From Hyphomicrobiales bacterium (GTDB lineage Bacteria; Pseudomonadota; Alphaproteobacteria; Rhizobiales; Xanthobacteraceae), in assembly GCA_013911975.1 (NCBI GenBank), contig JACESF010000008.1, positions 27,377 through 91,376 of the forward strand: a stretch of DNA of 64,000 bases, read 5' to 3'. Every line of letters starts with the position of its first letter. Positions within the stretch are counted from its first letter, which is position 1. The notes under the pieces are model-generated. The model searched no databases. It worked only from the letters and a program-made list of their open reading frames with translations, and was not told where the DNA came from. Shown one piece after another: positions 27,780-35,387 of this stretch. Position numbers and translations under genes: made by a program.

Positions 27780-27993
27780 GCCCCAGAAGTAAGGCGTCGG
27801 GCCCGCGAGGGCCAGAGGCGCCCCGCCGGGGCCTGCGCCTTAACCGACTGTTCACCCCAGCTTCTAACCGCTGATTCACCACGCTTTCTCATGGTGCGCC
27901 GCAAACGCTTGGTGGCCAGATTTCGTTTGCGATTTCGCCCTAATCCTGGCGGCACGTCACGCGGCACTGCCGTCGGGCTTAAAGGAGTTGACG

Positions 27994-28608
27994 ATGAAAC
28001 ACCGTCTCGTGGCGGGCCTGGCCACGCTGGGGGCGCTGGCGCTTCCCGCCGCCGCCGCCGACATGAACGGCGGCTATGGCTACGGCTACGCCCCCGCGGC
28101 GGCGTCGGCGCCCATGTCGTGGACCGGATTCTATATCGGCGCCAATGCCGGCTACGGCTGGGGCACGGCGGGTCCTTATTCCCCCGGTGGTTTCCTGGGC
28201 GGGCTGCAGGCCGGCTATAACTGGCAGTTCACGGGCTCGGCCTTCGTGGCCGGCCTGGAGACGGACTTCGCCTGGACGGGCATGAACGAGGGGCCGTACA
28301 GCGTCAGCTATATCGGCACCGTGCGGGCGCGCCTCGGATTCGCGTTCGACCGCTTCCTCGCCTACGGCACCGCGGGCCTCGCTTATGGTGCGGGACAATA
28401 TGAAATCGCAGGTCTGAGCAACGATCAGACCCATACTGGCTGGACGCTCGGCGTGGGTGGCGAGTTTGCCCTTGATCGTAACTGGAGCGCTCGCGCTGAA
28501 TATCTGTACGTTGATCTTGGTAGTTCGACATACAATTCTTTAACCGGTCCCGCGTCCCTGGGCTTTGATGGAAACATCATCAGGGGCGGCGTGAACTATC
28601 GTTTCTGA
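27994..28608 (+). CDS. Outer-membrane beta-barrel protein (Omp25/RopB-like), paralog 1
   Basis: Signal peptide; MSWTGFYIGANAGYGWG, GGLQAGYNWQFTG, YIGTVRARLGFAFDRFLAYGTAGLAYG, C-terminal GGVNYRF. Confidence 0.9.
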   Translation: MKHRLVAGLATLGALALPAAAADMNGGYGYGYAPAAASAPMSWTGFYIGANAGYGWGTAGPYSPGGFLGGLQAGYNWQFTGSAFVAGLETDFAWTGMNEGPYSVSYIGTVRARLGFAFDRFLAYGTAGLAYGAGQYEIAGLSNDQTHTGWTLGVGGEFALDRNWSARAEYLYVDLGSSTYNSLTGPASLGFDGNIIRGGVNYRF

Positions 28609-28816
28609 ACTATTAACGCTGTTAACGTGCGCGGAAGTGACTGTCTGCGAACGATTTGTGACCGGCCTTGAACGCTTTTGTGTTCACATGTAGGCTGTTA
28701 ACCACATTCCCGCCTCGTTTTCTTGGGGTGGGTGTTGCGGAAGAGTGACAGACGACCAAGCCGGCCCGGTGTATATCCGAGCCATCGTGTTTCGTATCTC
28801 AACGAAGGGTGTATCC

Positions 28817-29524
28817 ATGTTGAAGCGCGCTCTCGCCGGGGTCTCCGCCCTGGCTCTCCTCGGCGGTGCGGCCTCTGCGGCTGACCTCGCCACCAAGTAT
28901 CCGGTGAAGGCGCCGGTGGTGGTCCCCGTGTTCTCCTGGACCGGCTTCTATATCGGCGCGAACGTCGGCTGGGCCTGGCAGAACAACGACCTCTCCGTGT
29001 CTCCGTCGTTCGGCATCCCTGCCACGAACATCAATGTCGGCTCGTCCAACGGCTTCACCGGTGGTCTGCAGGCTGGCTACAACTGGCAGTTCGCCAACAA
29101 CGTGGTGCTCGGCCTCGAGGCTGACATCAACTGGACCGACCTCGGCAGCAACGGCGTCGTCGTCGTGAGCCCCGGCTTCGGTGTGGCTTCCGGCCTCGCC
29201 ACCGGCTCGATGGACTACCTCGGCACGATCCGCGCTCGCCTCGGCTACGCGTTCGATCGCGTTCTGCCGTACATCACCGGCGGTGTCGCTTACGGCAAGA
29301 CCGACTTCGGCAACATCTATGGTCTCTCCACCTCCGAGACCAACTGGGGCTGGACGATCGGCGCTGGCGTCGAGTACGCCTTCACCAACAACATCACCGC
29401 CAAGCTCGAGTACCTGTACGTCGATCTGAACGGTTCCAACTACACGATCCCGAGCACCCTCGGTTCCGTGGAAGCCGACACCAACACCTCGCTCCTCAAG
29501 GTCGGCGTGAACTACAAGTTCTGA
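28817..29524 (+). CDS. Outer-membrane beta-barrel protein (Omp25/RopB-like), paralog 2
   Basis: MLKRALAGVSALALLGGAASAADL; FSWTGFYIGANVGWAWQ; C-terminal VGVNYKF; followed by a strong terminator. Confidence 0.93.
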   Translation: MLKRALAGVSALALLGGAASAADLATKYPVKAPVVVPVFSWTGFYIGANVGWAWQNNDLSVSPSFGIPATNINVGSSNGFTGGLQAGYNWQFANNVVLGLEADINWTDLGSNGVVVVSPGFGVASGLATGSMDYLGTIRARLGYAFDRVLPYITGGVAYGKTDFGNIYGLSTSETNWGWTIGAGVEYAFTNNITAKLEYLYVDLNGSNYTIPSTLGSVEADTNTSLLKVGVNYKF

Positions 29525-29552
29525 TCGCTGCCTTTTCGAGACGTGTTGAGAA

Positions 29553-29579
29553 CCCCGGGCGAAAGCCCGGGGTTTTTTG
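29553..29579 (+). terminator. Rho-independent terminator
   Basis: ccccgggc-gaaa-gcccgggg-tttttt. Confidence 0.93.
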
Positions 29580-29734
29580 TTGCGCGCCGGAACGAACGCC
29601 CTCCATCGCGGGTTGGCCGACACGGAGAGACCCCGTGGCCGCCACCGCTTCGCCACGCGTGGGTCACGGACCTGCCGAGGTGAAGGTGCATGGATGGCAC
29701 CAGAGCCTGGAATGGCCTGGAAGAGGTGCGTGGA

Positions 29735-30370
29735 ATGAAATCGGTTTTCCTGATCGGGGCAGTGGCGGGCGTGCTGGCGGCTGGACCGGCCTTCGCCGCC
29801 GACCTTGCCCCCGCTGCCGCGATGCCCGTGAAGGCGCCGGTGGCCCAGCCCGCGCCGGTCTTCTCCTGGACCGGATTCTATATCGGCGGCAATGCCGGCT
29901 ATAGCTGGGGCTCCGGCAAGGCCGGCCTCAGCGGCGTCGATCCCGACGGATGGCTGGCCGGCGGCCAGCTCGGCTACAATTACCAGTTCCAGAACAACGT
30001 GCTGGTGGGCCTCGAGGCCGACATCCAGGGCGGCGACGTGAGCGGGAGCACGCTGGGGCTCGACAGCAATCTGGACTATCTCGGCACCGTGCGCGCGCGC
30101 CTCGGCTACGCCATGGACCGCGTGCTGCCTTATGTGACGGGCGGCCTCGCCTATGGGCGCAACTCCATCACCGATTACGGGTTCGAATCGGCTAAGACCC
30201 ATGTGGGCTGGACCGCGGGCGCCGGCATCGAGTATGCGCTGACCAACAACTGGACCGCGCGCGCCGAATATCTCTATACGGACCTTGGTTCGAAGACCTA
30301 CGACAATATCGGCACCGATGCGGGACTGACGAGTTCCAGCGCCAGGCTCGGAATCAATTATAAGTTCTGA
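29735..30370 (+). CDS. Outer-membrane beta-barrel protein (Omp25/RopB-like), paralog 3
   Basis: MKSVFLIGAVAGVLAAGPAFAADL; FSWTGFYIGGNAGYSWG; YLGTVRARLGYAMDRVLPYVTGGLAYG; C-terminal LGINYKF. Confidence 0.92.
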   Translation: MKSVFLIGAVAGVLAAGPAFAADLAPAAAMPVKAPVAQPAPVFSWTGFYIGGNAGYSWGSGKAGLSGVDPDGWLAGGQLGYNYQFQNNVLVGLEADIQGGDVSGSTLGLDSNLDYLGTVRARLGYAMDRVLPYVTGGLAYGRNSITDYGFESAKTHVGWTAGAGIEYALTNNWTARAEYLYTDLGSKTYDNIGTDAGLTSSSARLGINYKF

Positions 30371-30576: not shown

Positions 30577-31563
30577 ATGGCTCAGACCGACACCGCGCGT
30601 CCGCTCCGCGTGGGCGTGGCGGGAATCGGGATCATGGGATCCAACCACGCCCGCGTGCTGGCCGAGCTTCCCGGCGCCGAGCTGGTGGCGATCGCCGATC
30701 CGGACATGGCCCAGGCGGGCCGGGTGGCGAACTTCCTGGGCTGCGAGGCGGTGGAGGACCATCACGCGCTCATCGCGCGCGGGCTCGACGCCATCATCGT
30801 GGCCGCGCCCACCCACCTGCATCATCCGGTGGCGCTGGACATCATCAATTCCGGCACCTCGGTGCTGGTGGAGAAGCCGGTGGCCTCCACGGTGGAGGAG
30901 GGGCGCGAGATCGTGCAGGCCGCGCGGGCGAAGAACGTCACGCTCATGGTCGGCCATGTGGAGCGCTTCAACCCGGCGGTCCAGGCGGTGAAGAAGGCCA
31001 TCGCCAACGAGGAGCTCCTGTCCATCGCCATCACGCGGGTCGGCCCGTTCCCGCCGCGCATGTCCAATGTGGGCGTGGTGATCGACCTCGCGGTGCACGA
31101 CATCGACCTGATCCGCTGGTTCACCGGCTCGGATATCATCGAGGTGCAGCCGCAGACCTCCTCCGCCGTGGCGGAGCGGGAGGACATCGCGCTGCTCCAG
31201 TTCCGCACCGCCTCCGGCGTGCTGGCGCACATCAACACCAACTGGCTCACGCCCTTCAAGGCGCGCACGGTGCATGTCGCCACGCGCAAGAAGTATGTGA
31301 TCGGCGATCTTCTCACCCGTCAGGTGACGGAGTGCTTCGACTACCGGCCCGACGGCTCCTATTCCATGCGCCACCTGCCGGTGGCCTATGCGGAGCCGCT
31401 GCGCGCGGAGCTGGAGCAGTTCCTCGACGCGGTGCGCGGCGGCAAACCGCCGGCCGTGACCGGCGACGAGGGCGTCGCCAGCCTGGAGATCGCCATTTCC
31501 TGCCTCACTGGCCGCTCAGAGGCCAGCCGCTCCTCCGCCGACCGCCGCCGCGCGGTGGGCTGA
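30577..31563 (+). CDS. Gfo/Idh/MocA family NAD(P)-dependent oxidoreductase
   Basis: RVGVAGIGIMGSNHARVLAELPGAELVAIADPD; VEKPVASTVEEG; GHVERFNPAVQAV. Confidence 0.93.
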   Translation: MAQTDTARPLRVGVAGIGIMGSNHARVLAELPGAELVAIADPDMAQAGRVANFLGCEAVEDHHALIARGLDAIIVAAPTHLHHPVALDIINSGTSVLVEKPVASTVEEGREIVQAARAKNVTLMVGHVERFNPAVQAVKKAIANEELLSIAITRVGPFPPRMSNVGVVIDLAVHDIDLIRWFTGSDIIEVQPQTSSAVAEREDIALLQFRTASGVLAHINTNWLTPFKARTVHVATRKKYVIGDLLTRQVTECFDYRPDGSYSMRHLPVAYAEPLRAELEQFLDAVRGGKPPAVTGDEGVASLEIAISCLTGRSEASRSSADRRRAVG

Positions 31564-31584
31564 CAACCGAGAATCGAAGGCCGA

Positions 31585-32733
31585 ATGACCACGCATGTGA
31601 CCAGCCAGATGGCCCCCATTCCCTTCATCGACGTCGCCACCCAGCGCGCCCGCCTCGGCGCGCGTATCGACCGGGCGGTGGGCGCGGTCCTGGAAAGCTG
31701 CCGCTTCATCAACGGCCCGGAAGTCTCGATCCTGGAAGAGCAGCTCGCCGCCTTCGCGGGCGCGAAGCACGCCATCGCCTGTTCCAGCGGCACCGATGCG
31801 CTGGCCATGCTCCTGATGGCCTGGGGCATCGGCAAGGGCGACGCGGTGTTCTGCCCGGCCTTCACCTTCTGCGCCACCGCCGAGGTGGTGCCGTGGGTGG
31901 GCGCGACCCCGGTGTTCGTGGACGTGAAGCCCGACACCTTCAACATGGACGCGGACAGCCTGGATCGCGCCGTGGCGGTGGCCAAGGCGGCGGGGCTCAG
32001 CCCCAAGGTGGTCATTCCCGTGGACCTGTTCGGTCAGGCGGCGGACTATGACGCGATCCTGCCGGTGGCGCAGAAGCATGGCCTGAAGGTGCTGTGCGAC
32101 ACTGCTCAGGGCTTCGGCGCCGAATGGCATGGCCGGCGCACGGGCAGCATCGGCGATGCCTCCGCCACCTCCTTCTTCCCCGCCAAGCCGCTCGGCTGCT
32201 ACGGCGACGGCGGCGCGGTCTTCACCGATGACGACGCCCTCGTGCCGGTGCTCAAGAGCGTGCGCGAGCACGGGCAGGGCGTGGACAAGTACGAGAATGT
32301 CCGGATCGGCATGACCGCCCGCCTCGACACCATCCAGGCGGCGGTGCTGATCGAGAAGCTGGACATCTTCCCCGACGAGATCGCCGCCCGCGCGCGCATC
32401 GCGGCGCGCTACAACACGCTCCTGGCGGACGTTGCCATCGTTCCCGCTTTGGCGGAGGGCGCCACTTCCACCTGGGCGCAATACACGATCCGCCTCGCCC
32501 CCGGCCGCCGCGACGCCCTCGCGGACGCGCTGCGCAAGGAGGGCGTGCCCACGGCGGTCTATTACCGGATCCCCATGCACAAGCAGCCGGCCTATGCGTC
32601 GTTCCCGGGGGACAGCCTGCCGGTGAGCGAGGCGCTGTGCGCGGAAGTCATCAGCCTGCCCATGCATGCCTATCTGGACGACGCCACCCAGGACCGCATC
32701 GTCGCCGCCGTCCGCCGCGCTTTGGCGGCGTGA
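31585..32733 (+). CDS. DegT/DnrJ/EryC1/StrS family PLP-dependent aminotransferase
   Basis: FINGPEVSILEEQLAAFAGAKHAIACSSGTDALAMLLMAWGIGKGDAVFCPAFTFCATAE; LCDTAQGFGAEW; ATSFFPAKPLGCYGDGGAVFTDD. Confidence 0.95.
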   Translation: MTTHVTSQMAPIPFIDVATQRARLGARIDRAVGAVLESCRFINGPEVSILEEQLAAFAGAKHAIACSSGTDALAMLLMAWGIGKGDAVFCPAFTFCATAEVVPWVGATPVFVDVKPDTFNMDADSLDRAVAVAKAAGLSPKVVIPVDLFGQAADYDAILPVAQKHGLKVLCDTAQGFGAEWHGRRTGSIGDASATSFFPAKPLGCYGDGGAVFTDDDALVPVLKSVREHGQGVDKYENVRIGMTARLDTIQAAVLIEKLDIFPDEIAARARIAARYNTLLADVAIVPALAEGATSTWAQYTIRLAPGRRDALADALRKEGVPTAVYYRIPMHKQPAYASFPGDSLPVSEALCAEVISLPMHAYLDDATQDRIVAAVRRALAA

Positions 32734-32800
32734 GGGCAGGGGGCGCTGGACGGCGGCCTCTCCCGGTCTCGCCCCTTTCCCCCTCCCAACCCTCCCCCGC

Positions 32801-33600
32801 TTTCCCAGGTCATGGCCGGGCTTGTCCCGGCCATCCACGCGGCTCCGCCTTGTGGTGACGAACGGAAGGGCGTGGATGCCCGGGACAAGCCCGGGCATGA
32901 CGGCTGCAACGGATCGGGACCAGCGGGTTCCTGACTTGCGATGCGTCGGTTCGCTCACCGCTTTCCCATGTCATGGCCGGGCTTGTCCCGGCCATCCACG
33001 CGGCTCCGCCTTGTGGTGGCGAAGGGGAGGGCGTGGATGCCCGGGACAAGCCCGGGCATGACGGCTGCGACGGATCGGGACCAGCGGGTTCCTGATTTGC
33101 GATGCGTCGGTTCGCTCACCGCTTTCCCATGTCATGGCGGGGCTTGTCCCGGCCATCCACGCGGCTCCGCCTTGTGGTGACGAACGGGAGGGCGTGGATG
33201 CCCGGGACAGGCCCGGGCATGACGGCTGCGACGGATCGGGACCGGCGGGTTCCTGACTTGCGATGCGTCAGTTCGCTTACCGCTTTCCCAGGTCATGGCC
33301 GGGCTTGTCCCGGCCATCCACGCGGCTCCGCCTTGTGGTGACGAACGGGAGGGCGTGGGTGCCCGGGTCAAGTCCGGGCATGACGCATGCGACGGATCGG
33401 GACCAGCGGGTTCCTGACTTGCGATGCGTCGGTTCGCTCACCGCTTTCCCAGGTCATGGCCGGGCTTATCCCGACCATCCACGCGGCTCCGCCATGTGGG
33501 GCGAAGGGGGGAGGGCGTGGATGCCCGGGTCAAGCCCGGGCATGACGGCTGCGACCACAATGACGGCGGCGACGGATCGGAACCGGCGGGTTTCTGAGCG
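32801..33600. repeat. 161-bp tandem repeat array, five copies (fifth diverged)
   Basis: Copies begin at 32801, 32962, 33123, 33284, 33445 (exact 161-nt period); each contains atggccgggCTTGTcccggccat and atgcccgggACAAGcccgggcat. Confidence 0.95.
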
Positions 33601-33824: not shown

Positions 33825-35387
33825 ATGCTGCGCTCCATTCTTTCCGTCGGCGGATTGACGCTGGTCTCGCGGCTGGCGGGGTTCGTGCGCGACGTGGTCA
33901 TGGCGGCGGTGCTGGGCGCGGGGCCGGTGGCGGACGCCTTCCTCGTGGCGTTCCGCCTGCCCAACCATTTCCGGGCCATCTTCGCGGAAGGCGCCTTCAA
34001 CGCCGCTTTCGTGCCCACCTATGCCCGGCTGAAAGAGCAGGACGGCATCCCCGTGGCCCGTGGCTTCGCCGACGAGGTGCTCACCGCCATGGCGATGGTG
34101 CACGGCGTGCTGCTGGCGCTGGCGCTGGGCCTGACCCCGCAATTCGTCGGCCTGCTGGCGCCGGGCCTCGCCGAGGATCCGGCGCGGTTCGACCTCGCCG
34201 TGACGCTCACGCGCATCACCTTTCCCTATCTCGCCCTCATCTCGGTGGCGACGCTGGCCTCCGGCGCCCTGAACGCGGTCGATCGCTTCGCCATGGCGGC
34301 GGCCTCGCCCATCCTGCTCAACATCTGCATGATCGGCACGCTCCTGTGCGCGGGCCTGTTCCCCACCGCCGGGCATGCGGCGGCGTGGGGCGTGCTCCTG
34401 TCGGGCGTAGGGCAGGTGCTGCTGCTGCTGTGGGACGCGGAGCGCTCCGGCATCGGGCTGAGGCTCGCCCGGCCGAAGCTCGATCCCGGCACCAAGCGGT
34501 TCCTGAAGGCGCTCGGCCCGGCCATCATCGGCTCGGCGGGGGTGCAGATCGCGCTGTTCGCGGACACGATCATCGCCACCTTCCTGCCTTCGGGAGCGCT
34601 CTCCGCCCTCTATTACGCCGACCGCATCAACCAATTGCCCATCGGGGTGGTGGGGATCGCGGTGGGCACCGTGCTGCTGCCCGAAATGTCCCGGCGCCTC
34701 GCCGCGAAGGACGATGTGGGCGCCGCCAAGGCGCAGGCGCGGGCAGTGGAGTTCGCCGTGCTGCTGGCCGCGCCCTTCGTGGTCGCCTCGCTGATGATTC
34801 CCGACCTCACCATGCGCGCCCTGTTCGCGCGCGGCGCCTTCACGGCGGGTGACGCGGCGGCGGCGGCGGCGACGCTCCAGGCCTATGCGGTCGGCCTCAT
34901 CGCCTTCGTGGTGCTGCGCGGCTTCATCGCGCCGTTCCACGCGCGCAGCGACACCACCACGCCCATGATCGCCTCGCTGAGCGCGGTGGCGGTGAACGTG
35001 GCGCTGAAATTCGCGCTCATGGGCACGCTGGCCCAGGTGGGGCTCGCGCTGGCCACCGCCATCGGCGGCTGGATCAACCTCGCGCTGCTCATCATCTTCG
35101 CCCGCCGCCAGGGCTTGCCGCTGGGCGACGACCTGCTGGCGGGACGGCTGGTGCGGCTGTTCATCTGCGCCCTGGTCCTCGCCGGGACGCTGTGGGGCGT
35201 GCTCCCCTTCGCCCGGTCTCTCGCCGCCCGCCTGCCGGACGCACGCGAGGAGGTGACGCTGCTGCTTGTGGTTGCCGCCGGCGGCTTTGCCTATATAGTT
35301 GCGGTCATTGCCCTTTTGGGACGTGGCGTGCTGCGCCCGCTGTTGCGGCGGGCCGGCGGCAAGCCGCCTCAAACTCCTGCGAATTGA
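33825..35387 (+). CDS. murJ: Lipid II flippase MurJ (MviN)
   Basis: MLRSILSVGGLTLVSRLAGFVRDVVMAAVLGAGPVADAFLVAFRLPNHFRAIFAEGAFNAAFVPTYA. Confidence 0.97.
   Translation: MLRSILSVGGLTLVSRLAGFVRDVVMAAVLGAGPVADAFLVAFRLPNHFRAIFAEGAFNAAFVPTYARLKEQDGIPVARGFADEVLTAMAMVHGVLLALALGLTPQFVGLLAPGLAEDPARFDLAVTLTRITFPYLALISVATLASGALNAVDRFAMAAASPILLNICMIGTLLCAGLFPTAGHAAAWGVLLSGVGQVLLLLWDAERSGIGLRLARPKLDPGTKRFLKALGPAIIGSAGVQIALFADTIIATFLPSGALSALYYADRINQLPIGVVGIAVGTVLLPEMSRRLAAKDDVGAAKAQARAVEFAVLLAAPFVVASLMIPDLTMRALFARGAFTAGDAAAAAATLQAYAVGLIAFVVLRGFIAPFHARSDTTTPMIASLSAVAVNVALKFALMGTLAQVGLALATAIGGWINLALLIIFARRQGLPLGDDLLAGRLVRLFICALVLAGTLWGVLPFARSLAARLPDAREEVTLLLVVAAGGFAYIVAVIALLGRGVLRPLLRRAGGKPPQTPAN

Follow-up and report, generated by a model that had tools for sequence, protein, structure and literature searches.

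Tandem duplication of CGTC-tagged REP heterodimers in a Xanthobacteraceae genome and a small GIY-YIG nuclease gene embedded among the repeats

The closest described counterparts of the repeats reported here are the CGTC REPs surveyed by Di Nocera et al. (2013, PMC3733652), which combine a terminal unpaired CGTC (or TGTC/CCTC) tag with a stem of 8-9 bp starting from AT, a loop of 4-5 nt and a CCA tail. According to that survey, they are predominantly arranged as head-to-head (HH) dimers, with heterodimers being the rule in CGTC-2 and CGTC-3, and are rarely clustered save in Wolbachia and in the Neisseriae, whose dRS3 is a CGTC-1 REP; no associated enzyme or dedicated transposase is named for them (PMC3733652). 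Tandem clusters are on record for another type of repeat: P. fluorescens SBW25 has 16 tandem REPIN clusters composed of near-identical dimers along with their flanks (Bertels and Rainey 2011, PMC3116915), and these resemble the array described below in that a short stretch between the units is unrepeated while the flanks are repeated (PMC3116915).

Our analysis concerns a 64,000-nucleotide stretch of a Hyphomicrobiales draft genome of the family Xanthobacteraceae (hereafter, the window). In its one tandem array, the repeating unit pairs two CGTC-tagged REPs head-to-head as a heterodimer, to which the local flank is added, and as such it belongs to a known alphaproteobacterial class: it has in common with CGTC-3/4, the class with 9-bp stems, the tag, the length of an AT-initial stem, the 5-nt loop and the CCA tail, as well as the arrangement in HH heterodimers and the alphaproteobacterial host. 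The first-pass annotation of this DNA had recognized a familiar intergenic repeat type of Rhizobiales, and the match to the CGTC REP anatomy bears this out. By description, the unit is also like RIME1 and the other rhizobial mosaic elements, which are intergenic elements of ~100 bp with two palindromes found in Rhizobiales. In contrast to the rarely clustered CGTC REPs of the 2013 survey, this genome displays at least ten flank-containing tandem arrays, whereas its congener conforms to the survey in having none; likewise, the surveyed REPs came without a reported enzyme, whereas those of the present genome show a strong association with a GIY-YIG gene. The SBW25 clusters, for their part, feature GTAG-type REPs and a RAYT; the REPs of the window array carry a GTC tag instead, and a search for a RAYT/Y1 transposase (PF01797), a check proposed by the first-pass annotation, yielded no match in this genome, which is 91.5% complete.

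On the enzyme side, the nearest parallel is offered by the Ssn proteins of Neisseria, reportedly described by Chenal et al. in Nature Communications in 2025 as GIY-YIG site-specific single-strand nucleases of the NTS repeats, which they are said to cut in single-stranded DNA. The two systems are alike in that each has a small GIY-YIG protein of one domain, whose catalytic residues are conserved, and in that copies of a multi-copy repeat adjoin the nuclease gene. The present system differs in its Xanthobacteraceae host, its close heterodimers, its tandem arrays and the genes placed exactly within an HH pair. Elsewhere in the phylum, GIY-YIG genes adjoin repeats in which CGTC is followed by ATTCCCGC..GCGGGAAT, which resemble the dRS3 form. 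If the Ssn work covers CGTC REPs, the link to the enzyme would already be partly known, with the arrays and the heterodimer contrast remaining as what is new.

The array between the aminotransferase gene and murJ

In the window, TRF detects a single array (32797..33555, +) with a period of 161, 93% matches and no indels, and reading of the sequence agrees, thereby upholding the earlier description of five head-to-tail copies at an exact 161-nt period. The count of five is as assembled in a draft genome of 132 contigs. Its two neighbors run in the same direction: upstream is a gene for an aminotransferase of the DegT/DnrJ type (31585..32733, +; named by sequence resemblance) and downstream is murJ for the lipid II flippase (33825..35387, +), whose product matches two Aquabacter records at 90% and 86%, which makes the host an Aquabacter-like member of its family. 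Each 161-bp unit consists of a REP dimer and its local flank. In copy 1, REP A (32809..32837, +) comprises a GTC tag, a 9-bp stem, a CTTGT loop and a CCA tail, and REP B (32873..32901, -) is REP A inverted, with C:G rather than G:C at stem position 4. The A and B elements, on the + and - strands respectively, follow at 32970..32998 and 33034..33062 in copy 2, 33131..33159 and 33195..33223 in copy 3, 33292..33320 and 33356..33384 in copy 4, and 33453..33481 and 33518..33546 in copy 5. Thus, both hairpins were found in all five units as originally quoted, along with the deviations noted for them: a single stem mismatch in REP A of copy 3, two stem changes in REP B of copy 4, both G-U compatible, and changes in the stem and loop of REP A of copy 5. 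On the A side the base preceding GTC is G or T. For the core motif of the REP, the window has 10 occurrences where shuffled sequence would give 0.09, and the copies diverge by ~5-9%. Between successive dimers lies a repeated 67-bp spacer (for example, 32903..32969, unstranded), which runs from the right flank of one dimer through ~23 bp to 12 bp of left flank; of this, the 12 bp on the left and ~32 bp on the right are shared with the outer flanks of the array, and the middle ~23 bp is absent from both of them.

Upstream of murJ, four congeners are devoid of the element. The congener of locus L070 has another inverted repeat (CCCTCCCCCGCAAGCGGGAGAGGG) at the position of the array, and the left edge of the array (window ~32770-32808) retains a piece (CCCAACCCTCCCCCG) of the congener's inverted repeat. 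The array is also crossed by long spurious open reading frames, such as 31516-32958 (-), with the peptide MPGLVPGIHA..DGRDKPGHD; these are produced by the REP sequence itself, which is a likely cause of false gene calls. Matches of the array to microRNA entries in Rfam were below threshold and were rejected as being caused by the hairpin. Further upstream in the window (27988-30370), three adjacent open reading frames code for related outer-membrane beta-barrel proteins of the WTGFYIGANAGY type.

REP dimers and arrays across the genome and its relatives

The anatomy of the repeat was established on 243 hairpins, drawn from this genome together with two of its congeners. Of these, 211 have CGTC as their tag and 14 have TGTC, with the GTC being followed by AT; the stems are of 9 bp, AT-initial and of the form ATGGCCGGG or ATGCCCGGG, the loops are of 5 nt, the tail is CCACG in 208 of the 243, and the dimers of the set are in HH order. 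The G:C versus C:G difference between REPs A and B had earlier been read as a sign of selection on the local stems. However, exactly this combination recurs in 104/108 dimers, and a second, structural detector classified 109/109 close HH dimers as heterodimers, with no homodimer among them; the difference is a fixed trait of the whole REP family rather than a local signature of selection.

The dimer is the basic unit of the family, and the REPs form a non-coding population scattered over the genome. A BLAST search of the genome with the array unit recovered at least ~70 dimers and several clusters, and one array that escaped this first search surfaced later. Altogether, the genome has at least ten tandem arrays, whereas none was seen at the 32 repeat loci of the congener G001. 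The tandem amplification is indeed unusual, as the first-pass annotation held, but the array is not unique in its genome. Its origin is the local duplication of a single dimer together with its own flank. Nine or more further loci of this lineage have undergone the same, and none of those checked in the congener has. Each array has its own spacer and its own period, from 161 to ~290 bp per unit, or longer if a unit is missing, and in two of them, L035 and L038, the 3′ end of the neighboring gene seems to be part of the repeated flank. Within a single lineage, a REP dimer can thus be the seed of recurrent local duplication at no fewer than ten sites, and some of these duplications apparently extend into gene ends. 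Over 707 kb of this genome, including the window, the only intergenic arrays of at least three copies are the window array and a second one (L198), both built of REPs; the other tandem signals have two copies or fall within open reading frames. A comparable higher-order array, with 13 REPs in units of ~340-460 bp, was found in the single-contig genome of another genus (L242; G041:C1:734900-738100). Finally, we aligned a site at which the sister has a dimer and this genome none; both flanks are rearranged there, and no clean insertion junction is readable.

The GIY-YIG nuclease gene among the REPs

The second array in the 707 kb contains within it a gene for a 95-aa GIY-YIG protein (~6291-6575 of L198; G000:C1:144290-144574), which is single-domain and matches PF01541 with E = 1.7e-12. 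No further small GIY-YIG gene turned up in this genome; the only additional match lies inside a 715-aa frame that is probably uvrC. Across 70 homologues, the near-invariant residues are YxG, R28, H32, E53, E65, K69 and N84. The sole plausible match in the PDB is 1zg2, a UPF0213 protein; matches to WD-40 proteins were rejected as compositional. In the congener G001, the orthologous gene is bracketed by two single dimers, and homologues are present in 119 of the 150 family genomes searched.

Among the best-scoring loci, the GIY-YIG gene has a CGTC REP no more than 200 bp away in 28/28 cases in the family, 18/23 in the class and 14/19 in the phylum, these denominators comprising the loci with the gene placed and leaving out 14 that the gene finder missed; the REP density at 80 murJ loci gives an expectation of 0.6% (0.0056). 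At 14 loci of the family, four of the class and three of the phylum, the REPs closest to the gene bracket it in HH order, mostly with short gaps. Because top-ranked loci are a biased sample, we extended the analysis to 20 lower-ranked loci of the family and to 18 that represent other GIY-YIG subfamilies. The strict REP detector scored only 4/20 of the lower-ranked loci, and most of the others carry palindromes that are related but deviate in tag or loop. As the detector overlooks such variants, we added a test for inverted-repeat flanks that is free of any REP model, with murJ loci as controls: these flanks occur at 74/97 GIY-YIG loci (55/77 and 19/20) as against 0/61 murJ loci, and at 6/18 loci of the other subfamilies. 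At the level of whole genomes, the median number of REP-like seeds is 78 with the gene and 42 without it (p = 1.4e-4, kinship ignored); REPs are also present in genomes in which no GIY-YIG gene was detected, and some of these have many (257 seeds in G117 and 140 in G022). Taken together, these data establish that this REP class is strongly linked to the gene for the 95-aa GIY-YIG nuclease, which is embedded among the REPs, and the nuclease may act on this class.

Several loci of the other GIY-YIG subfamilies (L358, L362, L363, L365, L371 and L372) are flanked by a palindrome of the CTTCGACAAGCTCAGGATGA type, possibly representing a second nuclease-repeat pairing. Distant GIY-YIG genes within the family (L339, L340, L341, L344, L347 and L355) have as their flanks long-loop palindromes, GTCATTCCGGGGCG...CCCGGAATCCA, apparently a related REP class.

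Origin of the arrays and the heterodimer rule

We favor, at roughly even confidence, an explanation in which the arrays belong to a nuclease-associated REP population that has undergone lineage-specific tandem duplication. Under this proposal, the GIY-YIG nuclease would recognize the REP hairpin in single-stranded DNA and thereby disperse or maintain the REPs; nicks that it might introduce at replication forks could give rise to short out-of-register duplications, which could then grow by unequal recombination. Should the array influence transcripts between the aminotransferase gene and murJ, this would be a secondary effect. As the congener has the nuclease gene and no arrays, the nuclease alone is insufficient and something further is needed.

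That same congener, with its nuclease and REPs and no arrays, also speaks for an alternative, namely that the nuclease has no part in making the arrays: these would result from slippage of the ordinary kind and from unequal recombination where inverted repeats are long, with the association of the nuclease reflecting REP dispersal only. Replication is known to stall at long hairpins (Di Nocera et al. 2013, PMC3733652), and the flank-containing tandem REPIN clusters of SBW25 occur alongside an unrelated enzyme, the RAYT (PMC3116915). Slippage leaves unexplained, however, why ten loci were amplified in one lineage and none among the congener loci checked; it is a real possibility, though one that falls short of being probable.

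It is also conceivable that the array is kept because it serves, as RNA or as DNA, the expression of murJ or the aminotransferase gene, be it as a 3′ stabilizer, an attenuator or a gyrase or IHF site, in the way of the BIMEs of E. coli. Its position between co-directional genes would suit such a role, as would the fact that REP segments inside the arrays are 95-99% identical while the spacers are mostly at 84-94% (L035, with 98%, being the exception); but conversion could also keep the REPs alike. Moreover, the element is missing at the murJ locus of the four congeners, and the arrays adjoin unrelated genes. The first-pass annotation had made an excess of pair-preserving changes the touchstone of selection, and within the species such an excess is not supported: the REP set has 108 single stem changes, 40 of them giving G-U, and, of the transitions, 49 are compatible with G-U pairing while 36 are not (p = 0.19). 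Double changes are few in the set; no genuine one was seen in this genome, and a few occur between species. We therefore regard a role in expression as improbable.

Still less can be said for kissing loops or twin local hairpins as the selected structure, which we consider very improbable. The loops are reverse complements, as had been reported, in every intact dimer, and most copies keep their local stems paired; yet inversion suffices to yield this complementarity, because A and B are one REP in opposite orientations. Loop identity inside dimers (57/108) is only slightly above the 46.9 obtained by shuffling, so that loop covariation is slight, and the predicted fold of the core strongly favors one long hairpin (-74.3 kcal/mol) over two local ones (-35.6). 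These loop counts, transition counts and folding energies do not support kissing loops and covariation within the genome. An assembly artefact, which a draft genome might suggest, is scarcely credible, given that the ten arrays differ in their flanks, that a similar array exists in the single-contig genome of another genus, and that the divergence among the copies makes a simple assembly echo unlikely.

The nuclease-associated reading also admits a stronger version, which we put forward tentatively as possible. Here, the CGTC REPs would be the ends of an autonomous element of ~370 bp, consisting of a REP, the GIY-YIG nuclease gene and an inverted REP, with the HH dimers as its gene-less derivatives and the nuclease driving both their dispersal and the arrays. 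The association with the nuclease gene in itself points to a candidate enzyme for the main alphaproteobacterial REP class, where the 2013 survey could name none. On the stronger version, close dimers would have to be heterodimers because the long hairpin of a perfect pair with a short spacer is not tolerated; close homodimers would be excluded, while pairs separated by the gene may match. The heterodimer rule, which had lacked an explanation, is in this way given a reason that can be tested. The REP pairs that bracket the gene are identical in 6/14 cases in the family and 13/21 overall, as opposed to 0/109 close dimers (Fisher p = 7e-7 for the family against the close dimers, with fewer independent cases than counted since copies are related by descent), a contrast in line with the proposal made by Di Nocera et al. 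(2013, PMC3733652) that perfect long hairpins get cleared.
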